From the NCBI GenBank assembly GCA_028282665.1, contig JANQHN010000127.1, positions 1-41,585 of the forward strand: DNA of 41,585 bases. Direction: 5' to 3'. The notes below the pieces were generated by a model. The model was not told the origin of the DNA. It ran no database searches and saw only the letters and a list, made by a program, of their open reading frames with translations. Shown piece by piece: positions 10,774 through 41,585 of this stretch. This DNA is from Phycisphaerae bacterium. GTDB taxonomy: Bacteria; Planctomycetota; Phycisphaerae; UBA1845. Every line of letters begins with the position of its first letter. Position 1 is the stretch's first letter. The position numbers and the translations under genes were made by a program.

Positions 10774-13467
10774 CTACGGCACGATAACTTCGAGATTGTG
10801 CAATCGATGGCCGTCGTTGAGCTCGCGCAATATCAATCTCAACCGTTGCCCGGACAATGCCGCTCCACCCGTGATACGGTATTCTGCCACTGCAGTGTCA
10901 CCCGGCAAGAGATTAGTGATCGGCTGGTATTGCCTTGCTCTTCCTGGAACATTGGCGGAGCCACGGAAATTCAAAGGTTCGCTCGCACGATTCGTCACCA
11001 TGTGCCGCAGCAACAAATCGTCTCCCTCCACAATCGCAAGTCCCCAAACGTCAACGTCGCTTAATCCCAACTCGAAAAATAAGGGTACTTCAAGGTAGTA
11101 AGGACCTTGATTCAGTTCGATTTGTGCAACGAGCACTTTTGGCCCCGCAGGCTCTGTATGGGGAAACCGAAGCTGCATATCGAGGCGATTTTCGCGGCCA
11201 GAGGGTAACGTCAAATTGAAAAAACTCGGTTCCGCTTCCCAGTCAGGTGGAAGTGAAAGTCGCAAAGTACCTGACAGTGGCTTACGACCTTGGTTTGAGA
11301 GCTGAAGCTGGTAAGCAACATCTTCCGTACCGAAGTCTACCTTTTCAGGTGTCATCCCAACCGACATGCGAAAGTCAACTAACCATCTCTCAATGCCGGC
11401 GACGAAAATAGGCTCGGGCGTGAGTTTCACCACTTGGCGTCTCTTATCGTCACGCCTCAGTGGCACCTTGGTCCCCCACACATCCACCTGGTGAGTCGCC
11501 TGCCCCAATTGGATCGCGTAGTTCCTGCCTGACGGAGGCGCTTCCGTATCCCACATCGCCAATACGCAGGTATCGTCGCCCTTGAAAATCAGTGCCTCGA
11601 CACCGGGAGCAATAGGCAGTCTTCCTTCAGGCACCGAATCACCAAGCATGGTCGTGATCGTACGTAAAATGAGGTATTCTTCCGTCGGCTCCCCGACAAC
11701 CCCCTCAACCGTTTGCCTAACACGCCACGTCTGCGGTACATACACCGTGTCCACACCGGTGTGACGAGCGAGGATTACTCGTCTCGACCACTCAATCAGC
11801 CGGGGAATTGTCTCGTACTCATCTGCAGGCAACGGCTCGACGAAAGCAGTTAGGTTTTCGTAGGACAGCTTCCGCGTCTCCTTGATTAGAGAAGCAAACC
11901 AACGATGATGGACATTCTTCCCAAGCGTAAGGGTCATTTGTCGAGCTTCGGGAATGCGGGCTGCAGGAATAAAGTCCGAATGCCCAGGAACGCTGAGAAG
12001 CGGCAGATTCATAAATGGAATCATCTCTTTTTGAATCGCTTTGATCGCGTCTTCCAGCCTTGAATCGTTTACGACCGAAGTGTCGTTATCCGCGCCGATC
12101 TGCCACCACCGAAATACACTAGCGCGCGGTGCGACCGCCTCCGCCAAATGATCCCGCCAAACACCCGCCTCTTCGACGAGTAGTTCCACCAAGGGTCTGG
12201 GGTAAGGTCCAGCACTCTCAACAAGCTGTTTAGGCGCGCCGAAAAAGACACCCGTTAGCGCGAATCCGTCTTGCACCAATTTCTGTAAATAGCGATCAAC
12301 TTTTCGATTGTCTTCAAGTACGGAAGGCGTATAGCCAATGCCCGACCAAACCGGCAATTTGGCGGCACGCACACCCTGATGACGCAGGAGGTAGAGTTCC
12401 GTGCGCGGGTCGCACCTTTTTTCCGGATGAATCACAATCCCAAAGGGGTAGGCGGAGGTTTCCTTATCCCGCAAGAAACCACTCAACCGTGCAAACGTCA
12501 GTGAGCGGCTGAGAATCTTGACTCCGTTCGAAAATACATCCAAGCGGGCAGTGTAGAGACCTGGTGGAAGACTCGATACATCAAAACTCTTGGTGTCTGC
12601 GTACTTGCCAATGGACACTGGAACGTCGAACGACGTCGTTTCTTCTCCCAGCCTATCAAACACGAACAACTTTCCGGCAAGCGTCGTGTCCGAGTAATCG
12701 GCGAATACGACCCGGAGTGATTGTTCCTCACCCGGCACGAGAACGTTCCCCGGCGAAGAGGACTCCAGAATAAGCCTGGGTAATGCGTAAATCGTAATGT
12801 CATCGAACCAAGCACCGCCATCGATGTCAGTCCGAGGTATGTGCCGACGTATGCGCATTGATCGATTCCATACCGGGTCTTGTACGACCCAGACCATCAA
12901 ACCGATAGTGCGCGCTTCAGGCGGAGCGTTGGGCAGGTACATGCGGACCTTACCCCATTGTGATTCGTCTTCGAAACCACCCACGTACCGTGTTCGCACA
13001 AGCGATTCCATGATGGGTTGTCGATCTTCATCCAGAAAATGCGCACTCATCCACGCGCGAGCATGTTCAAGCTTATCCGGTCGAATATGTGCTTCAACGA
13101 GGTAGCTGGTGTTGGGCTGCACTCGCGTATCCGGGCCGACATAGCTATAAGCAACGTTACGACCTTCGCTTTTAAGATGAAACGATACAGAGTCTGTTAA
13201 GCCGAATTGTTCGTCGAAAGAACCCTCCGCAAAACGCGGAAACCCCTCAGGCCTGATCGCTTCCCAAAACATCGGCAGGTTTTCTAGGTTGCCCGCTTCC
13301 CGCTCGTTAAAGTCGAAATGATGAACGAGACGGTGCGGCGGAGCATTTACTTCATCCAGCGAATCGGCCGAATCAACCGCGACCGCAATCTGGGTATTCG
13401 GAAGCACAGCCAGCGTACAAACACAAACCAGACACAAGAGCTCAAGGCGCATCGCCACCACCCGCAT
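10774..13467 (-). CDS. Large secreted protein, glycosidase-like layout, function unknown
   Basis: An 897-residue exported protein if it starts at ATG 13467; ATG 13452 and TTG 13536 are alternatives. The N-terminus MRVVAMRLELLCLVCVCTLA is a signal peptide. Residues about 50-230 look like a carbohydrate-binding-like beta-sandwich: NTSYLVEAHIRP and AWFDDITIYALPR resemble the CBM family 4/9 pattern in which WFDD(I/V) ends the domain. The middle (about 330-620) has alternating beta/alpha segments such as FRWWQIGADNDTS and HTGVDTVYVPQTW, suggesting a TIM-barrel hydrolase. The C-terminal 250 residues resemble NEW3-like beta domains (LRLSLPPDWEAEPSFFNLTL). I cannot name a glycoside hydrolase family or catalytic residues. 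It is divergent from nadB and stands alone. Confidence 0.6.
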   Translation of the reverse strand: MRVVAMRLELLCLVCVCTLAVLPNTQIAVAVDSADSLDEVNAPPHRLVHHFDFNEREAGNLENLPMFWEAIRPEGFPRFAEGSFDEQFGLTDSVSFHLKSEGRNVAYSYVGPDTRVQPNTSYLVEAHIRPDKLEHARAWMSAHFLDEDRQPIMESLVRTRYVGGFEDESQWGKVRMYLPNAPPEARTIGLMVWVVQDPVWNRSMRIRRHIPRTDIDGGAWFDDITIYALPRLILESSSPGNVLVPGEEQSLRVVFADYSDTTLAGKLFVFDRLGEETTSFDVPVSIGKYADTKSFDVSSLPPGLYTARLDVFSNGVKILSRSLTFARLSGFLRDKETSAYPFGIVIHPEKRCDPRTELYLLRHQGVRAAKLPVWSGIGYTPSVLEDNRKVDRYLQKLVQDGFALTGVFFGAPKQLVESAGPYPRPLVELLVEEAGVWRDHLAEAVAPRASVFRWWQIGADNDTSVVNDSRLEDAIKAIQKEMIPFMNLPLLSVPGHSDFIPAARIPEARQMTLTLGKNVHHRWFASLIKETRKLSYENLTAFVEPLPADEYETIPRLIEWSRRVILARHTGVDTVYVPQTWRVRQTVEGVVGEPTEEYLILRTITTMLGDSVPEGRLPIAPGVEALIFKGDDTCVLAMWDTEAPPSGRNYAIQLGQATHQVDVWGTKVPLRRDDKRRQVVKLTPEPIFVAGIERWLVDFRMSVGMTPEKVDFGTEDVAYQLQLSNQGRKPLSGTLRLSLPPDWEAEPSFFNLTLPSGRENRLDMQLRFPHTEPAGPKVLVAQIELNQGPYYLEVPLFFELGLSDVDVWGLAIVEGDDLLLRHMVTNRASEPLNFRGSANVPGRARQYQPITNLLPGDTAVAEYRITGGAALSGQRLRLILRELNDGHRLHNLEVIVP

Positions 13468-13628
13468 TAAATGAATTCCAACAACTTCTCTTTGTCGAAT
13501 TATCGGTAGATAAGACTTAAGGTAGAAGCTATGCAAAAGTAAGCGAGTGTACGTCCGAATAAGTTGACCAGCAGATACAATTTCAGCATTGCTAAGTAGT
13601 GTCGCCTCGCCTAGGATATCTCGCTGCT

Positions 13629-18280: not shown

Positions 18281-21200
18281 TCAGTTAGCAACGATATTAA
18301 CGAGCCTGCCCTTCACGACGATAACCTTCCGCACCGTCTTACCCTGCAACAGGCTTTGTATTTTTGCGTCCGCCATCGCTACTTTTTCGAGCGTCTTTTC
18401 GTCAGCATCTACATGCACGGTGATTCGCGCTTTCACCTTGCCCATAATCTGCACTGCGACTTCCACCTCGTCATCTTTCGCGAGCGTTTCATCGTGCACA
18501 GGCCAGGGTTCGTAAGCTAACGTTTTGCCATGCCCCAAACGTGCCCAAAGCTCCTCCGCAAGATGCGGCGCGAAAGGTGAAACCAGCAGCACAAACGGTT
18601 CGATCACCTTGCGAGGCCTCTTGCCCAATTTGGTCATACCGTTCACAAAGTCGAACAAAGCTGCGATAGCGGTGTTTAGCTTGAGCTGTTCCAGTTCTTC
18701 CGTTACACGTTTGATCGTACCATGCAGCAGACGAAGCGCCTCATCGCTCGGCTCAACATCGACAAGATCTACGGAATTTTCACCCGTAAATTCGTCGACG
18801 ACCAACCGCCAGATTCGTTGGTTCAACCGGAAAAGTCCGGGGACATCCTGCGTGTTCCACGGCTTGGCGGCGTCCAGCGGTCCCATGTACATCTCGTACA
18901 TGCGAAAGGTATCTGCCCCATACTCCGCGATGATCGAATCGGGGTTTACCACATTCTTTAACGACTTGCTCATCTTTGCGACAACGCGGGCGACTGGCTC
19001 GCCGCCTTCCTGCTCGACGAGGCGCTTCACATCCTCCTCGGGTAAATCGTCATTGACAAAGTGCATACACTGATCATCAGTAAGCGGCGTGATCGAACCG
19101 TCCGCCTCCTGCAAGCCCAATTGCTTGGGAGCGACCACCGTACCGCGCGACGTTCGCGCAGCGAAGCTCTGGATCATACCCTGATTGAATAACCGCTGAA
19201 ACGGTTCACGCGTCGAGACATGCCCCAGATCGAACAGCACTTTATGCCAGAACCGCGCATACAGCAGGTGCAATACCGCGTGCTCGGCTCCGCCGACATA
19301 CAGGTCGATCGGCATCCAGTACCGCTCTGCCTCGCTCGCGCAAAAGATATCGCTATTGTGTGGATCGATGAATCGCAGGTAATACCAACACGAACCCGCC
19401 CACTGCGGCATGGTGTTTAAATCGCGCCGCCAGTCTTTTCCATCTCGCTCGACAGTAGCCCACGCTTTTGCGCGCCCCAACGGCGGTTCGGGCACTGAGT
19501 CCGAATCACCCTCCACGGGAGTCGGTTTGAAATTGTCCATCGGCGGCAATTCAACGGGCAGTTCCGACTCATCCAGCCCGATCGTCTCGCCATCCTCGCC
19601 GTGCAGGACCGGGAAAGGTTCGCCCCAGTACTTTTGCCTGCTGAAGATCCACTCGCGAAGTTTGTAATTAACCGCCGTCCGTCCCACGCAGCGAGATTCG
19701 AGCCATTTGGTAATCTTCGTTTTACACTCTGCGGTGGACATGCCATCGAACTGCTGCGAATTTATGGCTACCCCCTGATCCACAAACACCTCGACGAAAG
19801 ACTCAGGCGACTTACGGTAAGCATCACGAAGATCCCGCATGCTGGCTTCGCTAAGTACGTCAACGTCTTGCAAATCCGCAGGTCGAATCTCCTCTTGGGC
19901 GAGCCATTCATCCGTAGGCATCACCACAGGTATGATCCGCAGATCAAACGCCTTCGCAAATTCGCAATCGCGCGTGTCATGCCCCGGCACCGCCATGATC
20001 GCCCCCGTTCCGTATCCCATCAATACGTAATCGGCGATCCAAATGGGAATCTCCTTGCCATTGACCGGATTGATCGCGTACGCACCGGTGAAGACGCCGG
20101 TCTTCTCCTTGGTGTCGGCTGTGCGGTCCAATTCAGACTTGTTCCGCGCCTGTGCGACGTAAGTCTCCACCTCGCCCTTGCGCTCATCGGTGATGATTTC
20201 CCCAACAAGCGGATGCTCGGGCGCAAGCACCATGTACGTCGCGCCGAACAGCGTATCTGGCCGAGTCGTGTAGACCTTAATTGAACGCGGGAAGTCAGAG
20301 AACACCGGCTGGTCCGCGCATGAACCGCACAGGCACTTCCACTCGCCTCCTTCGACCGCCCAATCTTTCGCCAGCGGGAAGATCACTTCCGCACCGGTGC
20401 TGCGTCCGACCCAGTTGCGCTGCATGAGTTTAATCGGCTCGGGCCAATCCAAATCATCCAAATCATTGAGCAACCGATCGCCATAGCGCGTAATGCGCAG
20501 CATCCATTGCCGCAACGGCCGCCGATAAACCGGGTGATTACCACGCTCGCTTCGACCGTCATTTGTAACCTCTTCATTCGCGAGGACCGTCCCCAATGCC
20601 GGGCACCAATTCACTGCCACTTCATCAATGAAGGCAAGACGCTGATTGTTGACTGCTTGGCGTCGTTCGGCTTTCGAAAGATCCACCCACTCGCGTCGTG
20701 GCGTTTCTTTGTCACGCACGAGCTCAAGGTCAGCATCCACGCCCCATGCACCGGATTTAAACTGGGCAACCAGCTCTTCGATTGGCGTGGCTCTGCCAAT
20801 GGTTTGGTTGCCCTGTGGATCGGTCCATTCGAGTTGATCGTCATACCAGCTTTTGAACATCTGGAGGAAGATCCACTGCGTATGTTTGTAGTAATCAGGT
20901 TCGCATGTGGCGACTTCGCGGCTCCAGTCGTAGCTGAAGCCGAACATCTTGAGCTGACGACGGTAAGTTTCGATATTCGCGCGCGTCGTATCGGCGGGGT
21001 GAACATTGTGCTCGATGGCATATTGCTCCGCGGGCAGACCGAAGGCGTCGAATCCCATCGGATGCAGCACGTTAAATCCGCGCATCCGTTTGTAACGGCA
21101 GATGATGTCCGTCGCGCAATAACCAAGCGGGTGCCCCACATGAAGCCCGGCCCCGCTGGGGTAAGGGAACATGTCGAGCACGTAGTACTTGGGCTTGCTC

Positions 21201-21331
21201 GTGTCCGCTCCACAATCGCTGGGGTTTAGAACTTTGAACGTCTCGTGTTCCTGCCAATAACGCTGCCATTTGGCTTCAATTTCGGTGAAGTTGTAGCGTC
21301 CGCGCTTCTCAATTCGCTCGGTACCAGACAT
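18281..21331 (-). CDS. leuS: Leucyl-tRNA synthetase
   Basis: Class I synthetase charging tRNA-Leu with leucine. The HIGH-type motif is HVGH (residues 64-67) inside MFPYPSGAGLHVGHPLGY; KMSKS occurs near residue 785 followed by LKNVVNPD. The editing CP1 domain is present (TTRPDTLFGATYMVLAPEHP; VPGHDTRDCEFAKAF), and the tRNA-binding C-terminal domain ends in KGRLVNIVAN. At 1016 residues it is about 150 longer than E. coli LeuS. Extra segments occur near 170-230, 325-345 and 770-785. ATG 21331 gives MSGTERIEKRGRYNF and is preferred to the in-frame TTG 21358. The CYTH gene follows downstream. Confidence 0.95.
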   Translation of the reverse strand: MSGTERIEKRGRYNFTEIEAKWQRYWQEHETFKVLNPSDCGADTSKPKYYVLDMFPYPSGAGLHVGHPLGYCATDIICRYKRMRGFNVLHPMGFDAFGLPAEQYAIEHNVHPADTTRANIETYRRQLKMFGFSYDWSREVATCEPDYYKHTQWIFLQMFKSWYDDQLEWTDPQGNQTIGRATPIEELVAQFKSGAWGVDADLELVRDKETPRREWVDLSKAERRQAVNNQRLAFIDEVAVNWCPALGTVLANEEVTNDGRSERGNHPVYRRPLRQWMLRITRYGDRLLNDLDDLDWPEPIKLMQRNWVGRSTGAEVIFPLAKDWAVEGGEWKCLCGSCADQPVFSDFPRSIKVYTTRPDTLFGATYMVLAPEHPLVGEIITDERKGEVETYVAQARNKSELDRTADTKEKTGVFTGAYAINPVNGKEIPIWIADYVLMGYGTGAIMAVPGHDTRDCEFAKAFDLRIIPVVMPTDEWLAQEEIRPADLQDVDVLSEASMRDLRDAYRKSPESFVEVFVDQGVAINSQQFDGMSTAECKTKITKWLESRCVGRTAVNYKLREWIFSRQKYWGEPFPVLHGEDGETIGLDESELPVELPPMDNFKPTPVEGDSDSVPEPPLGRAKAWATVERDGKDWRRDLNTMPQWAGSCWYYLRFIDPHNSDIFCASEAERYWMPIDLYVGGAEHAVLHLLYARFWHKVLFDLGHVSTREPFQRLFNQGMIQSFAARTSRGTVVAPKQLGLQEADGSITPLTDDQCMHFVNDDLPEEDVKRLVEQEGGEPVARVVAKMSKSLKNVVNPDSIIAEYGADTFRMYEMYMGPLDAAKPWNTQDVPGLFRLNQRIWRLVVDEFTGENSVDLVDVEPSDEALRLLHGTIKRVTEELEQLKLNTAIAALFDFVNGMTKLGKRPRKVIEPFVLLVSPFAPHLAEELWARLGHGKTLAYEPWPVHDETLAKDDEVEVAVQIMGKVKARITVHVDADEKTLEKVAMADAKIQSLLQGKTVRKVIVVKGRLVNIVAN

Positions 21332-21368
21332 CGCTTGAGTTGCCTCTCGAATACGCAAAAACCGTCAA

Positions 21369-24340: not shown

Positions 24341-24642
24341 GACTCACATCCCGGAAAGAGTAAGGCGGTGCGGCTTTGCAAGTTAGTGCCCGAGCCTCAC
24401 ACCGCGTGAAGAAAGCCTTAAATTAGGTACGCATTCGGGCCATGTCAACCAACTGCAGACCACTCGCGTGCGTTCACTCCCAAACAACAACAACCGTGGA
24501 AGTTCCACAAACAAAACGTCGATAGGCCTTGCTGTGAAAAAAGAACGGAGAACCCCGATCGCACCAGATCGAGGCTCTCCGCTTGTTGTAAGTCCGCATC
24601 GCACGCATTACTGCGGCATGTTCAGAATTTAAGCGAACAAAG
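24341..24642. other. Intergenic region between gcvT and the giant secreted protein gene
   Basis: A 302-base gap upstream of gcvT and downstream of the giant gene; both are leftward. It holds the intrinsic terminator of the giant gene (24537-24582) and a 13-base palindrome GTGGAAGTTCCAC at 24496-24508 that could be an operator for gcvT. No coding frame is supported. Confidence 0.5.
24537..24582 (-). terminator. Intrinsic terminator of the giant secreted protein gene
   Basis: On the minus strand, about 60 nt after the stop codon, a stem of some 16 pairs with one or two mismatches (GCGGAGAGCCTCGATC opposite GATCGGGGTTCTCCGT) closes a 6-nt loop and is followed by TCTTTTTT. This is a textbook Rho-independent terminator. 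Confidence 0.88.
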
Positions 24643-27600
24643 TTACTGCGGATACGCCTGTTGGAACAAGTAGAAATCGTGCATGTCTATATCGCCGTCG
24701 CCGTCCATATCCAGACAAACACAACCGTAGTACAATGACTGATCCGGACTCGGACCCGTCGCACATTCCGCCCAGTTGGCGAGGTCGGTTGGCTGAACCA
24801 CGCCGCTGTTGTCGCAGTCGCCATCCAACTCGCATCCGTCCAGGATGCCATCGAAGTCGTAGTCCGTATCCAGCGCGTTGGCTAAGTCGCAGGCGTCGTC
24901 CTCATTGTTATTGTTGCAATCCGTCCACTGTTGGCACTCATCCGGAATCAAATCCGGTCGAGCGCCGCTGCCCGTGTCGGACAGAAATGACTCGATGTCC
25001 GCAAAATCTTGCTCGGTAAAGCCTGGAAAACCACCGCCGGGGTGATCCGTAGGTGGGGTCAGCTTGTTCCACAACTGAACACGACTCTTACCGCGCAGGT
25101 TCGGACCGGGCAGATCCGGACCACCGGCACCATCCGGACCGTGACAACCGAAGCAATAGGTACCGATCAGCAACTCGCCGCCGTCGGGCGAACCCAACAC
25201 GCCACCGGTACAGTCATCGCTCGTACCGTCGGTAACGTCGCATTCGTCGGGGGTGTCGTTGCTGTTGCAATCGTTACTGTCACCGTTCGAAATGTCGATC
25301 GAGTCATCAACGCCGTTATCGTTGCAGTCCCGCAATGGCACGCCGTCGCAACTGATGTTCAGCGTACCGTTGCCTTGAGCACCGTTGTAACCACCGATAC
25401 GAATCAGATACCGCTGACCTGCAATAGTGCCGAAGTTAACTTCCGATTGTGTGGTCCCGTCGCACGAGTCGTCATTACACACGATCGCCGAAGGACCGAT
25501 CGGACACTCACAGCCTTCGTAGACTGCGACCTTTGTGTCGTATCCGCTACCACACAAGCTTACCGTCGTATCGCCCGTGCAGGACGCGGTGTAGCAATAC
25601 CAGATATCAGACTCGACATGCGTGTAACCGAACGCCGAACAGACGCCGGGCTCATCCGGGCCGTCGGTCGTCGCGCCGCTATTGCTAAACGGCGTTTCGC
25701 CATCAAAAACCGGCGCGGCGTTTACGCACTCATCGTTGTCGATAAACATGCAATTCTCATCGCAGGTTACGCCATCCGGAGGATCGCATTCCTCGCCCGG
25801 CTCAACGATACCGTTGCCGCAAACTGCCTCACCGCCGGCATCTTCGACGATCTTGTAAATCGATCCGCCGGCGCTGACGATATACAACTCTCCCGCAGCG
25901 TCCTCGCCGAACGACACGATGCTCGTGATCGTGCCGGTGTATTGACCAAGTTGGGCGGTACGATCCTGCTGATCCGTAACCTGACCGTCGACATAACGGA
26001 AACTACGAATCCAATCCGCACACCAGTCGGCATAGAAGTAGGTGCCGGAAAGTCCGGGCAACTCGCAGCCACGATACACGAAACCGCCCGTAATCGAGCA
26101 AACACCGCTGCTATGCGGCACATCGACGATCGGGAACACGTAATCACCAGCCGGTCCGCAACCCGAAGTGTTGTAGGGGAAGTCACCCTCGTAGCAGCGC
26201 CAACCATAGTTTAATCCGCCGCCAGAGTTAGCCGGCTCGAAGTCAATTTCTTCGTGAGCATTCTGTCCAACGTCACCGATGTACATATCACCAGTCAGGC
26301 GGTCGAAGCTGAATCGCCACGGATTACGCACACCCAGCGCCCAGATTTCATCACGCGTTGTATTGTCGTCAACAAACGGATTGTCCACCGCTACATAACT
26401 AGGCGGATTCTCGACATCCAGCCTGAGCATTTTGCCCAGCAACGATTGCGGATTCTGAGAACGATCCAGTGGATCGCCGCCACTACCGCCGTCACCCATC
26501 CCCACGTAGAGCATCCCATCAGGACCGAACGCAAGCTGACCACCATTGTGGTTGCCGAAATCCTGATTGATCGTTTTGAGAATCAGATTGCTGCTGGAAT
26601 CCGCAATGTTGGGATCGCCCGATACGCTGTATCGCTCGATGACCGTATTGCCGGATGTGTTGGTGTAGTTGACGTAAAAATAGCCGTTGTTGCCGTAGTC
26701 AGGATGAAACGCAAGGCCCAGCAGACCACGCTCACCACCCGTACTGATCTTGCTCGCAATGTTCAAAAAAGGCGTGGGTAGAGTCGAACCGTTCTCGATA
26801 ATTTTGATGCGACCGTTTTGCTCAACAATAAACAGGCGGTTCAGATCGCCCGGCACTGCGTAAAGGCCGACGGGTTGGCTAAAGCCGGATGCCACAAGTT
26901 GCGCAGCAATGTCTTCTTCCACGAAGAATTCGCATTCATCGGGAACACCATTGCCGTTGCAATCAAAGCTGGTTCCGTTGGCGATGTCCTCGTCGTCGGC
27001 AACGCCGTTTTCGTTGCAATCTATCAGGCCGAACGCCGGGCCTTGCACCTGTACTACAACCGAGTCAGGCGATCCGGGTTTGAACAATCCAATCGTCACG
27101 TTCGACGTATCGGGCGCCGCATCTGCATCGAAACGGAAATTGTACAACGTGCCCCACCGAAGTGCATTGGCATCAGGATTCGTATCGTAGGACTCGGTGC
27201 TCCAAACGAGTTGGCCACCGACAATCTGCGCGCTCCAATCCGTTCCGTCAAACGGCTCACCGCTGTGGTAGTCGACATCGTGAAAGCCAATGTTTGTAAT
27301 GTTCGCCCCATTAGGAACGGGAACGGAAAAGAAACCGGCACCGCGGTCGGAGTTAAGGTTCTGAACCGCATACTCGTAATTCCAGGTGCCGTTGCCGTTG
27401 TCAGTAACTTTGACACCGACGATGAAGATCCCCTCATCCGGTACCGGGGCGACCCTCGTCGATACGCCCGGATCCGCTTCGGACCACGCGTAGATACCCG
27501 CCGAGCGCTGCTGTGTCGATCCCTGCAAGGCTATGCTCCAACTGTTACCGCCGCCGGAAACATTAATCGGTCTGTATGAGGCATTATTCACGCCATTCCC

Positions 27601-28791
27601 TGCTGCAGCATCATCCGCCGCAATGTACTGGGCTTCTACGAAATACTCCCCCCCACCGTTTTGGTTTGGATCCAGGTCAGAGTGGTGAACCTGCAAACGA
27701 CGCGCAATCTCGCCTGAATAGGAAGGATCAAAAAACGGATACGGGTAATAGCCGGTGTAAGCGTTCACCTGAAACTTCGGTCCGAGCCTGTGCTGAGAGC
27801 CGTTTAGCCACGCGCTGTAAGGGTCGCTGCAACCAGGTCCGAGCCTCGATCCCGTATTGGGATCATCGCAACCAAGCCCGCATTCATCGCCGTTGACAGA
27901 GGTGAAGCCGTGCTTAAGCCAGCTTTGGCCAATATGCTCAAACTTACTATCCTTGAGGCGATACATGTTTTGCCCGATGACCGGGTGTTCATTCGTATCG
28001 CGAATCCACAAGAGATCTTCGTCACCCAAATTGCATGATGTGGTTCCGATAGAGAACGCGGCTATACCGTTCTCACTACCCCAATTGCGCTCATCGTAGA
28101 TAAAGCCGACAATAACGTCTGGACCAATACCGCCGGTCGCCGAAGAATCGCTGGGGTGATCAATGTCATTGCTTTGCGGCTGATCACCACCTACCCACTC
28201 GAGCTCAGTACGAAAATACATGGAGCCAATCGAACGATCGGAGAGTTCATGCTTGCCCAATGCGTCGGCCAGTTCGGGTGTGGCGACAAGCGACCCCGCC
28301 TCTACCAAAAACACGCCCGCAGTCGGATCAAAGCCGATTTTTAGGTTGCTAAGAATAAGCCCTGTCATCACACCGTTTGGCGTCTCGAACTGAATTGCCA
28401 ATGCCGGCTCGAACGGCGAGCCAAAGTGAGCGATGGTTAGCCTATCACTGCGAATCGCTCCATTGCGGGAAACAAACGAAAGCCCCTTGTTGTGCTCAAG
28501 CGTACCGCCAAGAAATTCTGCCGGGCCCCCTTCCCTGGTAATCATCGTCAAAGTGGAATCGTTTGTGATCACCGCTTCAACGCGACCCTGCCAGATTGGT
28601 TTGGTGGCATCTTCTTCTCGCTGAAGGATTTCCGTCGACGCGATCCTGAATTCCTCCAGCACGGCAGACTCAAACGAAAAGCTGGTCGAACCAGATTTGA
28701 CTTCCCAAACGGTGTCGGCGTCAGCTATCAGCGGAGATGCCATACACACGCACCAACACGCCAATGCACCGAAAACTCTTTTTTTTCCCAT
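24643..28791 (-). CDS. Giant secreted PQQ-type sugar dehydrogenase with cytochrome c and dockerin-like repeats
   Basis: A 1382-residue exported protein starting at ATG 28791 with GAGGGG 8 nt upstream; the signal peptide is MGKKRVFGALACWCVCMA. Residues about 30-580 form beta-rich regions, including IAAFSIGTTSCNLG and HPVIGQNMYRL, a type I associate with planctomycete secreted proteins. A dockerin-like DCNENGVADDEDIANGTS repeat follows near 585-623. Residues about 625-983 are a glucose/sorbosone dehydrogenase beta-propeller (GERGLLGLAFHPDYGNNGYF; NHNGGQLAFGPDGMLYVGMG). Next come a Cys-rich CGNGIVEPGEECD motif, a beta domain (1010-1150), a second DCNDNGVDD repeat, a c-type heme motif CFGCH (1213-1217), and a C-terminal dockerin-like tail (DCDNSGVV...DMDGDGDIDMHDF). 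Likely a periplasmic or surface sugar oxidase with its own electron carrier; substrate unknown. Confidence 0.82.
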   Translation of the reverse strand: MGKKRVFGALACWCVCMASPLIADADTVWEVKSGSTSFSFESAVLEEFRIASTEILQREEDATKPIWQGRVEAVITNDSTLTMITREGGPAEFLGGTLEHNKGLSFVSRNGAIRSDRLTIAHFGSPFEPALAIQFETPNGVMTGLILSNLKIGFDPTAGVFLVEAGSLVATPELADALGKHELSDRSIGSMYFRTELEWVGGDQPQSNDIDHPSDSSATGGIGPDVIVGFIYDERNWGSENGIAAFSIGTTSCNLGDEDLLWIRDTNEHPVIGQNMYRLKDSKFEHIGQSWLKHGFTSVNGDECGLGCDDPNTGSRLGPGCSDPYSAWLNGSQHRLGPKFQVNAYTGYYPYPFFDPSYSGEIARRLQVHHSDLDPNQNGGGEYFVEAQYIAADDAAAGNGVNNASYRPINVSGGGNSWSIALQGSTQQRSAGIYAWSEADPGVSTRVAPVPDEGIFIVGVKVTDNGNGTWNYEYAVQNLNSDRGAGFFSVPVPNGANITNIGFHDVDYHSGEPFDGTDWSAQIVGGQLVWSTESYDTNPDANALRWGTLYNFRFDADAAPDTSNVTIGLFKPGSPDSVVVQVQGPAFGLIDCNENGVADDEDIANGTSFDCNGNGVPDECEFFVEEDIAAQLVASGFSQPVGLYAVPGDLNRLFIVEQNGRIKIIENGSTLPTPFLNIASKISTGGERGLLGLAFHPDYGNNGYFYVNYTNTSGNTVIERYSVSGDPNIADSSSNLILKTINQDFGNHNGGQLAFGPDGMLYVGMGDGGSGGDPLDRSQNPQSLLGKMLRLDVENPPSYVAVDNPFVDDNTTRDEIWALGVRNPWRFSFDRLTGDMYIGDVGQNAHEEIDFEPANSGGGLNYGWRCYEGDFPYNTSGCGPAGDYVFPIVDVPHSSGVCSITGGFVYRGCELPGLSGTYFYADWCADWIRSFRYVDGQVTDQQDRTAQLGQYTGTITSIVSFGEDAAGELYIVSAGGSIYKIVEDAGGEAVCGNGIVEPGEECDPPDGVTCDENCMFIDNDECVNAAPVFDGETPFSNSGATTDGPDEPGVCSAFGYTHVESDIWYCYTASCTGDTTVSLCGSGYDTKVAVYEGCECPIGPSAIVCNDDSCDGTTQSEVNFGTIAGQRYLIRIGGYNGAQGNGTLNISCDGVPLRDCNDNGVDDSIDISNGDSNDCNSNDTPDECDVTDGTSDDCTGGVLGSPDGGELLIGTYCFGCHGPDGAGGPDLPGPNLRGKSRVQLWNKLTPPTDHPGGGFPGFTEQDFADIESFLSDTGSGARPDLIPDECQQWTDCNNNNEDDACDLANALDTDYDFDGILDGCELDGDCDNSGVVQPTDLANWAECATGPSPDQSLYYGCVCLDMDGDGDIDMHDFYLFQQAYPQ

Positions 28792-29169: not shown

Positions 29170-31101
29170 CTAGTCCCCAATGTCCAGATATGCCTCGTAG
29201 CGCGAATCGATAACAACCGCCCTAGAGAATGCATCAGAAGCTTCGCGCCCCTTTCCCGCGGCGCTTAGCGTCACACCAAGTTGAAAATGCAATTCCGCGT
29301 TTTGCGGATCGCAGGCCAGCGCAATTCGATAATGTTCAATCGCCTCATCAAATCGGCTTACCGCTCGGAATGCGCCCGCAAGATTTTGGCGAGCGAACAC
29401 ATGTTCGGGGTGCGATTCCAGCAAGATCCGCCATTCTATGATGGCCTCTTCCAGTCTCCCCGTCGCCGCAAGTGCGTTTCCCAGTTTAAAACGAGCGAGA
29501 ACCAAATCGGAGGATTGCGACAGCGCAGCGTGGTAATGCGGGATCGCTTTGGCAAATGCCCCCCGCATGGAATGGATGCTGCCAATGTAATACTCAACCG
29601 TGCTCGTGTCGTCGAATAGTGACCTCGCAACGGTCAATTGTTCCAGTGCGCCATCTACGCGGTCTTGTAACAACTCGAGCCAAGCAAGCTTCATCCGCAC
29701 GCTGCCTGAATCCGCCAAGCCGTATGTCACCGAAAGGTTCAAATGAACGTATCCCGCCTCGGCCGCCCCCAGTCGAATGTTATCCTGTGCAACAACGCCC
29801 GGACCATAAGTGAACAGGACTTCCTCGTCGAGCAGGTTCGCCCCCTGTTTGGCTGCCTGTTGGTAATGACGATCCCCCACAAACAAGTGATACTGGATGA
29901 AACCACTATGCAAAATGAGAGTTGCAAAACCGGCAGTCGCTAGCAGAAAGATCCCTCCCTGCAGTCGGATGCGCCCGCCGACCTTCAACCTGAGATTCTG
30001 CAAGGCCACCGCACTCTTCGTGAACATCCTAAGCGATACGATCGAGAGGAACGCCGTAATGGAAGCAATCCCCAACGCCATCAAGAATGGGATAACTTGA
30101 TAGATTCCACGCACAGATAGCAAAGTTACCGCGAACACGACGAGCGCAAGAACTTCTTCTGCAAGCGTGAGGTCACAACGCGGCTTCTCAGCTTTTTTTA
30201 CGCGAACTCGAGTCGCAATGGTCGACTTCCCGAACCCGAAATACAGCGCTTCCTTCGGGCAGGCACTGACGCAATCCAAACACTTCATACAACCCGGATC
30301 AACAACCATCCCGTAATCACGCACTTCGGCATGCACCTTGACGTTGGAAGTACACAGCGCAGTGCAATGCCCGCAGCTTTCGCAATTGCCATTGACGCGG
30401 ATCGAACCTGAAGCCACCTTGTCCGCCAGTGCGAAGAATCCGCCGTAAGGACAGCCGTAGGTGCAATACCCCTTCATGCCCAGGAAATAGACCGTCGCAA
30501 ATCCGCAGACAAACAAAAACGGCACAGCAACCGCAACTCCCGGAAACGTGTCCCAAAATTCCGTCTTGGTTAGGTGCCAGGACAGTTGGGGGAACGGATC
30601 GCTGGGTATCATCACCACGCGGTAGACTGCCGGCCAAACAAACATGTACAACGCCGCCCCAAGTGGAACGAACATCAAGAGTCGAGCCCTGAAAGGTCGA
30701 GGCCTGATTCCCATCTTCTTTAGCACCCACGCACACAAGTCCTGCAAGGCAACCACATGACAGCCCCACCCGCAGAAGAACCGGCCGAAAATCAACGTCG
30801 AGAGAATCACCAAACCGAAGAAAATGAAACCCGCGTTGATGGCGCCATCCCGGATTGTGTGCATCGCTTCCGAGGGTTCGATGGGCGAGATGGTTTCACC
30901 CGCATAAAGCCAGTGCAAAACGTGCAGCAGGATGAATACGTGGACCCCGATAAGCACTCCCGCACGCCACCATCCCATACGCGAACCACTCACTCGGCCG
31001 CGCGGCTTGTGGTCGAGCGGCAAAACGGGTAAGCGAGTGCTAGCTCGCCGCTTCGCACCAGTTACTGATGTCGTCTTTTCACAATTTGGCTTCTCGGCCA
31101 T
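29170..31101 (-). CDS. Membrane polyferredoxin (NapH/NosR-like) fused to TPR repeats
   Basis: A 643-residue membrane iron-sulfur protein. Residues about 45-210 contain several helices and two cysteine motifs of the NapH/NosR/CcoG kind, FFCGWGCH and CTYGCPYGGFF. Then come two 4Fe-4S ferredoxin clusters, CESCGHCTALC and CMKCLDCVSACPKEA (about 238-285). Three more helices follow (about 310-330, 335-360, 385-400). The C-terminal half (about 420-640) is made of TPR repeats (for example RFKLGNALAATGRLEEAIIEW and FDEAIEHYRIALACDPQN). The electron-transfer part would pass electrons across the membrane; the TPR part probably recruits partner proteins. No partner reductase is adjacent. ATG 31101 has no clear ribosome site. 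Similar TPR-tailed polyferredoxins are, to my knowledge, found in planctomycetes. Confidence 0.82.
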   Translation of the reverse strand: MAEKPNCEKTTSVTGAKRRASTRLPVLPLDHKPRGRVSGSRMGWWRAGVLIGVHVFILLHVLHWLYAGETISPIEPSEAMHTIRDGAINAGFIFFGLVILSTLIFGRFFCGWGCHVVALQDLCAWVLKKMGIRPRPFRARLLMFVPLGAALYMFVWPAVYRVVMIPSDPFPQLSWHLTKTEFWDTFPGVAVAVPFLFVCGFATVYFLGMKGYCTYGCPYGGFFALADKVASGSIRVNGNCESCGHCTALCTSNVKVHAEVRDYGMVVDPGCMKCLDCVSACPKEALYFGFGKSTIATRVRVKKAEKPRCDLTLAEEVLALVVFAVTLLSVRGIYQVIPFLMALGIASITAFLSIVSLRMFTKSAVALQNLRLKVGGRIRLQGGIFLLATAGFATLILHSGFIQYHLFVGDRHYQQAAKQGANLLDEEVLFTYGPGVVAQDNIRLGAAEAGYVHLNLSVTYGLADSGSVRMKLAWLELLQDRVDGALEQLTVARSLFDDTSTVEYYIGSIHSMRGAFAKAIPHYHAALSQSSDLVLARFKLGNALAATGRLEEAIIEWRILLESHPEHVFARQNLAGAFRAVSRFDEAIEHYRIALACDPQNAELHFQLGVTLSAAGKGREASDAFSRAVVIDSRYEAYLDIGD

Positions 31102-39988: not shown

Positions 39989-41585
39989 TTACGGGCAACC
40001 GGTCATGCAATAAAACGCAACCTGCTCCGGACAACCCGACTGATTGATGGCCGCACTGCCGGTCAGTGTACCGCAAATGCACAGATCCAGATCGTGGCCC
40101 GTATCATGGCAACCGGTTACGACGATATCGCCAGACATGCCTCCGCCGCCGTTACCGTCGGTAATCTTGATCGATCCATCGTAGACAACCGCCGCAGGGG
40201 GATTGGCATCGCCAATGAGAATATCGCCGCTGGCAACACCATTATCGATTAGAGAAATGAGGATATCGCATGAACGCCCAATTCCGCCGTGGACGGCTAT
40301 CAGTGAACTACTTGACATCTTGTCATGGACCGTAATGTCACCGTATGAGATGCCGCCAATGAGAATCCGCCCATAGCTCCGTAAGCCATCGTTGACCGTA
40401 ACGTTCCCTGTTCCACCGAGATCACCCCCAATATCGACGTCACCGGTCATAAAACCACTGACCGCCACATAACCGTCAAGATCATCATTAAACACTAACG
40501 ATCCACTGGAGTTCGAGTTCAAGGTAACACTGACATTACTGCTTTCGTCAAAGTACATGTTTCCTTTCATATTTCCGTCTACTCGGATTGCACCGGAAGA
40601 ACTGCCTTCGACGCGAATATTCGCCGAACTCGTCATGTCTCCTAAGATCTCAATTGCGCCATCCAATTCGCCGTCCGTCTCAATCGTACCACTCAAATCA
40701 CCCGAAATGGCAATTGTCCCATCGAATCCACCACCCGGAGCGGGAGCCGAGTTGAGAAAATGGATCGTACCCGAAACGCCTTGAGCCACATTGATTTTAC
40801 CCTTGAACGGATGGAGGGCATTGCTGACGTCGTACAACTGGCCTGAAATTGAATTGACATACAAATCGCCTTCGAAATCCAAATACGAAACCGTCGAATC
40901 CAGCCAGAATGTGCCGCTAATATCACCAACTTTCCGAATCTCGCCCGTTCCACCATCGTTCAAATCGAACGTACCGGCAACGTCAGCATATAACATATCG
41001 ACGATACCGGTAGAACGAACAGCCCCCGTTGTTACCGTGCAACCAAGAGGCACACCGTCGTCTAACATCAGCGTCCCCTCAATCGCCCCCATGGTCGCCC
41101 TCCCCGAATTGGCAAAACCCTTCACCCTGATCGTCGCACCAGGCTGTAAGGTTCCAGACATGTAAACGGTTCCTCCGTCAATCACATCAAAGGTTGCCGT
41201 GTCGGAATAGTTGCCAGTGATGATAAATATGGCCGCAGCCCTTGGAATCGCAATGTCACCGTTAACCATTCCCGAAATAGTGGTCGTCCCGGTAACCGAT
41301 CCTCCATTTCCTCCTGAGGACTTTTGGAGGGAAATTCCACCATTGACATTACCCGTAATGTTCGCTCCGCCGAGGGACGAATAATTGACGTCGTTAGTCG
41401 GATCGAGAATGATCGACTCGACGCTCGTCGCACCCACTCCACCACTGCTGTTCATTACAGCAATAGTAAAATTGTCTGCATACGGGCATGTCAAATCACC
41501 CAGCGCCGACGGGTCCCCCGAATTCTCAGACCACACGCGCCAAGTGTCACTGCCAACACGGAAAATGACGTCAGGTCTGGCTGGA
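39989..41585 (-). CDS. Repetitive beta-solenoid-like secreted protein, C-terminal part
   Basis: The frame is open to the window's right edge (at least 532 residues), so the N-terminus is missing; the GTG at 41536 is probably internal because the frame continues upstream (RPDVIFRVGSDTWRV). The sequence consists of many short Gly/Asp/Ser-rich units, for example GDLSGTIETDGELDGAIEI, then VEGSSSGAIRVDGNMKGNM and ISYGDITVHDKMSSSSL. Each unit is about 18-25 residues of alternating hydrophobic residues and turns, as in right-handed beta-helices. The C-terminus (LDLCICGTLTGSAAINQSGC) is Cys-rich. Probably surface or secreted; no enzyme motif is visible. Similar repeats occur in polymer-forming and adhesin-like proteins. 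Confidence 0.6.
   Translation of the reverse strand, partial: PARPDVIFRVGSDTWRVWSENSGDPSALGDLTCPYADNFTIAVMNSSGGVGATSVESIILDPTNDVNYSSLGGANITGNVNGGISLQKSSGGNGGSVTGTTTISGMVNGDIAIPRAAAIFIITGNYSDTATFDVIDGGTVYMSGTLQPGATIRVKGFANSGRATMGAIEGTLMLDDGVPLGCTVTTGAVRSTGIVDMLYADVAGTFDLNDGGTGEIRKVGDISGTFWLDSTVSYLDFEGDLYVNSISGQLYDVSNALHPFKGKINVAQGVSGTIHFLNSAPAPGGGFDGTIAISGDLSGTIETDGELDGAIEILGDMTSSANIRVEGSSSGAIRVDGNMKGNMYFDESSNVSVTLNSNSSGSLVFNDDLDGYVAVSGFMTGDVDIGGDLGGTGNVTVNDGLRSYGRILIGGISYGDITVHDKMSSSSLIAVHGGIGRSCDILISLIDNGVASGDILIGDANPPAAVVYDGSIKITDGNGGGGMSGDIVVTGCHDTGHDLDLCICGTLTGSAAINQSGCPEQVAFYCMTGCP

Follow-up and report, generated by a model that had tools for sequence, protein, structure and literature searches.

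The locus

The DNA analysed here (the window) is contig JANQHN010000127.1 of a Phycisphaerae bacterium, 41,585 nucleotides long and one contig of a 4.46-Mb draft genome that is 88% complete. The order UBA1845, to which the organism belongs, is known chiefly through metagenomes, in low-oxygen settings (PMC11266412). Relatives of the source genome are chiefly metagenome-assembled genomes of Phycisphaerae. On the minus strand lies a gene for a 1382-residue protein of the HHIP-type branch, a single secreted chain with both a propeller and a cytochrome. It is probably a redox protein and not a textbook sugar dehydrogenase with pyrroloquinoline quinone (PQQ). Its parts follow one another as a signal peptide, two N-terminal domains, a GSDH propeller, a galactose-binding-like domain, a cytochrome c module and a tail. 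The open reading frame and every element listed for it in a preliminary description of this DNA are present. The features that carry the argument are given below.

24643..28791, minus strand: whole gene, 1382 amino acids, ATG at 28791, TAA at 24643-24645
28714..28791, minus strand: predicted Sec signal peptide, residues 1-26, recognised by eye from KKR, a hydrophobic core and an A-x-A-like end
25837..26916, minus strand: six-blade GSDH propeller (PF07995), residues 626-985, HHIP-side subfamily
24967..25209, minus strand: class-I-like cytochrome c module, residues 1195-1275
25141..25155, minus strand: CFGCH heme attachment motif, residues 1213-1217
25042..25044, minus strand: H1250 (in HPGG), putative distal heme ligand
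24544..24583, minus strand: strong terminator-like stem of the intrinsic type, 17 pairs followed by a T-run, predicted to end the transcription unit

A GAGGGG stretch is found about 10 nucleotides upstream of the ATG. Rfam and tRNA scans across the window gave no match.

Heme module and electron carriers

The CFGCH heme site of the preliminary description is real. When the C-terminal 397 residues are shuffled, a CxxCH turns up in 1.9% of trials, and the single-heme module scores 24.0 bits with PF00034 (Cytochrom_C; cut-off 21.3), a family matched by 16 of 16 aligned members. Among these 16 single-heme modules there is no conserved Met, the usual distal ligand. H1250 is invariant in all 16 where the Met ligand is usual, and His/His ligation of the heme is suggested by this pattern. 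Cytochrome c assembly genes are present in the source genome.

Fusion to a carrier recurs among relatives. CxxCH follows the propeller in 24 of 27 complete proteins that combine the second N-terminal domain (N-dom) with GSDH, the query included; 16 of the 24 have a single-heme module like the query and 8 have a module of the ECHGWDYKG type, usually followed by a second heme. The two-heme form (CKECHGWDYKGVDGQYGxGxHRTGFPGVLG and C-x-x-CHGSDG) was seen in the C-terminal parts of L037, L039, L041, L042, L050, L053 and L059. A paralog in the same genome (L003:1171-3168, plus strand; G000:C440) joins a GSDH propeller of the same kind to a domain resembling plastocyanin (PF00127, E=1.6e-8), with the copper ligands in CVVHEAFGM (Cys-x2-His-x4-Met) and a dockerin-like C-terminal end. 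A stand-alone GSDH protein (L002:1306-2694, plus strand; G000:C343) has a lipoprotein-like signal (LVGGC) and likewise lacks the PQQ-holding clamp discussed below.

An electron-transfer role of the 1382-residue protein is likely. The preliminary description had it oxidise sugars and pass the electrons to its own heme; redox coupling is plausible because the propeller and a c-type heme are on one secreted chain and recur together in relatives, but a PQQ-dependent sugar oxidation of the Asd/sGDH type is not supported.

The propeller and its cofactor site

The propeller scores 143 bits with PF07995 (GSDH; cut-off 25), at E=1.6e-41. The GSDH fold is real, but its earlier label "PQQ-type" is an interpretation and not an observation. 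In sGDH the general base is His144, assisted by Arg228 and Asn229 (PMC6881810), and Lys377 together with C-terminal arginines such as Arg408 holds the PQQ carboxylates (PMC6881789). Residues were counted over 43 distinct propellers of the group, aligned to sGDH, and the corresponding positions in the protein are as follows.

26548..26550, minus strand: H748, which corresponds to His144, the general base of sGDH; His in 41/43
26323..26328, minus strand: R822-N823, equivalent of sGDH Arg228-Asn229; Arg in 43/43, Asn in 41/43
26020..26022, minus strand: C924, where sGDH has Lys377 (PQQ carboxylate ligand)
25915..25923, minus strand: S957-V959, at the R-x-R position (sGDH Arg406/Arg408), which holds PQQ in Asd

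We take Arg406 and Arg408 to be a pair that matches the R-x-R of Asd, in line with the alignments made here. The propeller shares with E. coli YliI/Asd and A. calcoaceticus sGDH the PF07995 fold, the general-base His, the Arg-Asn pair and the Gly of the Ca-loop (retained in 42/43). By contrast, the Lys/Arg/Arg clamp of these enzymes and their Ca-loop Pro, replaced by Gln in 41/43, are lost here, and the propeller falls outside their clade. Unlike the propeller here, YliI/Asd and sGDH have no carrier fusion.

On the features tested, the clamp and the tree, the propeller appears to lie outside the Asd/sGDH enzymes. The Lys377 position is occupied by Cys in 35 of the 43 propellers and by Lys or Arg in none. 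Neither Arg406 nor Arg408 has a retained equivalent (0/43 for either), with one paralog carrying Lys in the Arg408 column. Misalignment is an unlikely explanation of the lost R-x-R, as in 41 of the 43 the three columns on either side are also free of Arg and Lys. The best solved-structure match of the propeller in a sequence search of the PDB is human HHIP (5e-35), against 8.9e-23 for Pyrobaculum Asd, and in the tree the group is placed with HHIP, a long branch, and separated from the Asd enzymes (yliI, 7cdy, 2ism, 3a9g) by a 100/100 split. PqqE was found above the cut-off in none of 113 related genomes, by a search shown to work by weaker radical-SAM cross-matches; PqqE was used instead of PqqC, for which the search was silent everywhere, controls included, and is therefore not counted as evidence of absence.

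Because of the lost clamp, the tree split, the HHIP match and the failure to find PqqE, membership of the Asd/sGDH enzymes does not hold on the features tested. This does not exclude PQQ itself, because the fungal PQQ dehydrogenase CcSDH, a single chain with a cytochrome domain, misses several of the canonical PQQ residues, as HHIP does, and yet its activity is PQQ-dependent (PMC4133262). Loss of the PQQ-binding residues, named beforehand as decisive against the preliminary description, is seen by half: Lys/Arg/Arg are gone, whereas the His and the Arg/Asn pair are retained. That description amounted to a classical PQQ sugar dehydrogenase with a cytochrome, docked on a cohesin scaffold. Family PF07995, the retained catalytic residues and the possibility of scavenged PQQ speak for it; the missing clamp, the position outside the Asd clade and a TIGR03606 score of 58 for the 1382-residue protein, where the cut-off is 434, make it improbable. 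Its scaffold half is taken up with the tail.

The HHIP match, the tree, the absent clamp residues and the failure to find PqqE also weigh against a redox enzyme that feeds its own heme, and three further points stand with them. To our knowledge, HHIP has no dehydrogenase function. Three of the 27 complete N-dom and GSDH proteins (L038, L040, L047) are without heme. The structure model of the C-terminal part is of low confidence (pLDDT 58), and its lowest Foldseek E is 0.07, although the top matches are almost without exception cytochromes c (probability about 0.9-0.99), with a dockerin match lower in the list. All of these points but the last, together with the many binding-type domains and repeats of the protein, would be consistent with a propeller that is a non-catalytic binding module like that of HHIP, in a large adhesive matrix protein whose heme has a role of its own, such as electron conduit or redox sensor. 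The two propellers do have in common the motifs GGFVYRGC and SFGED/GFGED and the loss of the clamp. However, the Arg-Asn pair that would lie beside the quinone is near-invariant in the group and has been lost in HHIP, where His/Asp are found instead (GLHDPG), and three kinds of electron carrier are repeatedly fused to the propeller. A non-catalytic propeller is a serious but less probable alternative. An enzyme feeding its own carrier is favoured because three carrier kinds are fused to one propeller type and because the His, Arg and Asn are near-invariant; to a redox enzyme whose HHIP-type propeller hands electrons to the fused c-type heme we assign a probability of about one half.

Comparison with fungal dehydrogenases

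The literature yielded nothing direct on bacterial HHIP homologs or on planctomycete GSDH-cytochrome fusions. The closest plan is that of the fungal pyranose dehydrogenase CcPDH/CcSDH, a PQQ-dependent enzyme composed of an AA8 cytochrome b, an AA12 propeller and a CBM1 (PMC4133262, PMC6881789). Both the fungal and the present proteins are secreted single chains with a six-blade propeller, a cytochrome of their own and a binding module, and both retain the catalytic His and the Arg-Asn pair and miss other bacterial PQQ ligands. The cytochrome is a b domain in the fungi whereas the heme is c-type here, and Arg621 of AA12 is absent here. The likeness is one of plan and does not imply membership of AA12, no structure of which is among the PDB sequence matches.

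The tail and the scaffold question

24646..24819, minus strand: dockerin-like/EF-hand tail, residues 1325-1382, scoring under the Pfam threshold

The preliminary description had the tail attach the protein to a surface scaffold. A resemblance to dockerin is present, but the tail scores 15.8 bits with PF00404, under the cut-off of 22.9. The source genome has 22 dockerin matches, and no cohesin was found in it at 88% completeness; cohesins (PF00963) occur on large open frames in 51 of the 113 related genomes (relatives G001-G111). A C-terminal hydrophobic helix with a basic end was not seen in the protein, which ends ...DMHDFYLFQQAYPQ, and therefore no sorting signal of the PEP-CTERM or LPXTG type is seen; a sorting feature of the MYXO-CTERM type is likewise not found at the protein end.

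For freshwater Planctomycetes, a "planctosome" of cohesin and dockerin proteins has been put forward (PMC6461901). Like the protein described here, its members are large, exported and equipped with repeats of the TSP3 type and a tail of the dockerin type, but they are peptidases and cohesin-bearing anchors. The 22 dockerin matches, the cohesins of relatives and the planctosome proposal favour a docked enzyme; the score of the tail and the failure to find cohesin in this genome oppose it. Scaffold attachment, read from the sequence of the tail, is a weak proposal, conceivable and unsupported in this genome.

N-terminal domains, repeats and linkers

28162..28713, minus strand: N-terminal domain 1, residues 27-210, beta-rich, its sequence variable among relatives
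27022..28146, minus strand: N-terminal domain 2 (N-dom), residues 216-590, the best conserved part
26938..27021, minus strand: first DCNxNGxxD pair, residues 591-618
25729..25821, minus strand: CGNGIVEPGEECD linker, residues 991-1021, cysteine-rich and DUF4215/Myxo-repeat-like; PF13948 is matched in relatives
25381..25737, minus strand: galactose-binding-like beta domain, residues 1019-1137; PF23759 reaches 22.8, under its threshold of 27
25246..25329, minus strand: second DCNxN pair, residues 1155-1182
24838..24921, minus strand: third DCNxN repeat with a TSP3-like partner, residues 1291-1318

The architecture of N-terminal domains and propeller is shared by more than 20 relatives with 47-64% identity to the protein. 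What had been described as a large uncharacterised N-terminal region is indeed on the same chain, but consists of two domains, the second of them absent from Pfam and NCBIfam. The DCNxN repeats, first counted as two, are five in three clusters (591/610, 1155/1174, 1291), and the sequence motif on the earlier list begins at residue 991.

A structure model of the N-terminal part from 29 sequences reached a mean pLDDT of 81.7 and a predicted template modelling score (pTM) of 0.70. The best whole-domain structural matches of domain 1 are HtaA heme-binding domains (template modelling score 0.59-0.64 by target, 11-12% identity), a match placed in domain 1 from size and order. HtaA-type heme binding is not claimed, as the likeness is one of fold, has no sequence support and concerns a poorly conserved domain. 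Scans of the N-terminal region with Pfam and NCBIfam gave no family. N-dom occurs at no fewer than 582 loci in species-representative genomes; the best 80 are mostly from Planctomycetota, with a few others. N-dom (about 375 residues) has many invariant residues, among them Cys, His, Trp and Lys.

The upstream neighbour

29170..31101, minus strand, the same strand as the propeller gene: NapH/MauN-like 4Fe-4S membrane protein with C-terminal tetratricopeptide repeats (polyFd), upstream neighbour, tied to N-dom proteins across the order

A polyFd homolog lies directly downstream of an N-dom and GSDH propeller gene in three relatives (G004, G034, G050). The adjacent propeller proteins of G004 and G034 are without heme, and the reading of that of G050 is interrupted by unknown bases. 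An N-dom gene is found near polyFd in 9 of 60 neighbourhoods (G000, G034 and G050 included) against 0 of 20 control regions. At the measured density of one N-dom per Mb, about 0.75 positive neighbourhoods would be expected by chance. Three of the 60 (L211, L213, L214) were picked for an adjacency already known and are all positive, which leaves 6 of 57.

Of 50 genomes, 32 have both N-dom and polyFd and 17 have neither, whereas a single genome has N-dom without polyFd and none has polyFd without N-dom (Fisher 1.8e-12). The association persists inside COX1-positive genomes (p=7e-9); these p-values ignore shared ancestry, with presence and absence both found within families f1, f2 and f4. The link is far tighter than the association with COX1. 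Lifestyle as the sole cause of the co-occurrence is weakened, as COX1 is present in 10 of the 17 genomes that lack both.

The neighbour brings in a further alternative, in which another cofactor or a metal is used, or a substrate is reduced by electrons of the cell supplied through the NapH-like 4Fe-4S protein, in place of sugar oxidation. Its presence on the same strand here and beside the three propeller genes would suit this, as would the Cys at the Lys377 position and the Gln in the Ca-loop. However, polyFd also adjoins N-dom proteins without a propeller, and this alternative is the least probable of those considered. For the same reason, it may be the N-terminal domain, and not the redox part of the protein, with which polyFd is linked. 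More speculatively, N-dom and polyFd could make up a redox system that acts outside the cytoplasm of Phycisphaerae and has not been described before, in which polyFd trades electrons with, or matures, secreted N-dom proteins, some of them with an HHIP-type dehydrogenase propeller, interchangeable carriers (one-heme, two-heme) and a cofactor that is not PQQ or is unusually held. This wider proposal is doubtful at present.

Proposed function

The favoured explanation is an exported, calcium-stabilised multi-domain redox protein. Its HHIP-type propeller would oxidise a small molecule outside the cytoplasm, a sugar or another alcohol. His748 would act as the base, and Arg822/Asn823 would lie where a bound cofactor of the quinone type has its reactive end. 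Electrons would pass from the propeller to the C-terminal fused c-type heme and from there to an acceptor in the periplasm or outside the cell. The cofactor would be held without the Lys/Arg/Arg clamp of Asd/sGDH and would not come from PqqE-type synthesis in the group; it could be PQQ that is scavenged and bound differently, as the fungal AA12 enzymes bind it, or another cofactor altogether. The N-terminal domains, the galactose-binding-like domain, the DCNxN repeats and the EF-hand-like tail may serve as matrix- or surface-binding modules. The domains, the conserved residues, the c-heme motif and the recurring carrier fusions are observed, whereas the catalysis, the cofactor, the substrate, the path of the electrons and the location are deduced from them. 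The earlier interpretation is supported in part: its secreted redox chain is plausible, and its Asd/sGDH PQQ enzyme is not supported.

Other genes in the window

Three other minus-strand frames were observed.

39989..41585, minus strand: open frame of at least 515 amino acids that runs past the window edge, secreted and repetitive in character and unmatched in Pfam and NCBIfam
18281..21358, minus strand: leucyl-tRNA synthetase of 1025 amino acids against a model length of 843, its matches split by an apparent insertion at about residues 170-239
10774..13536, minus strand: 920-residue protein, probably secreted, whose sole match, NPCBM_assoc, is sub-threshold

Significance

Proteins of the group described here match a family annotated "glucose/sorbosone (PQQ) dehydrogenase" though they are without the PQQ-holding residues, fall on the branch of animal HHIP and occur in genomes without a recognised PqqE. 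The almost complete pairing of N-dom with a membrane iron-sulfur protein points to a candidate for a new partner in electron transfer or maturation. The fusions to heme and copper carriers make the original role and the cofactor of HHIP-type propellers directly testable.

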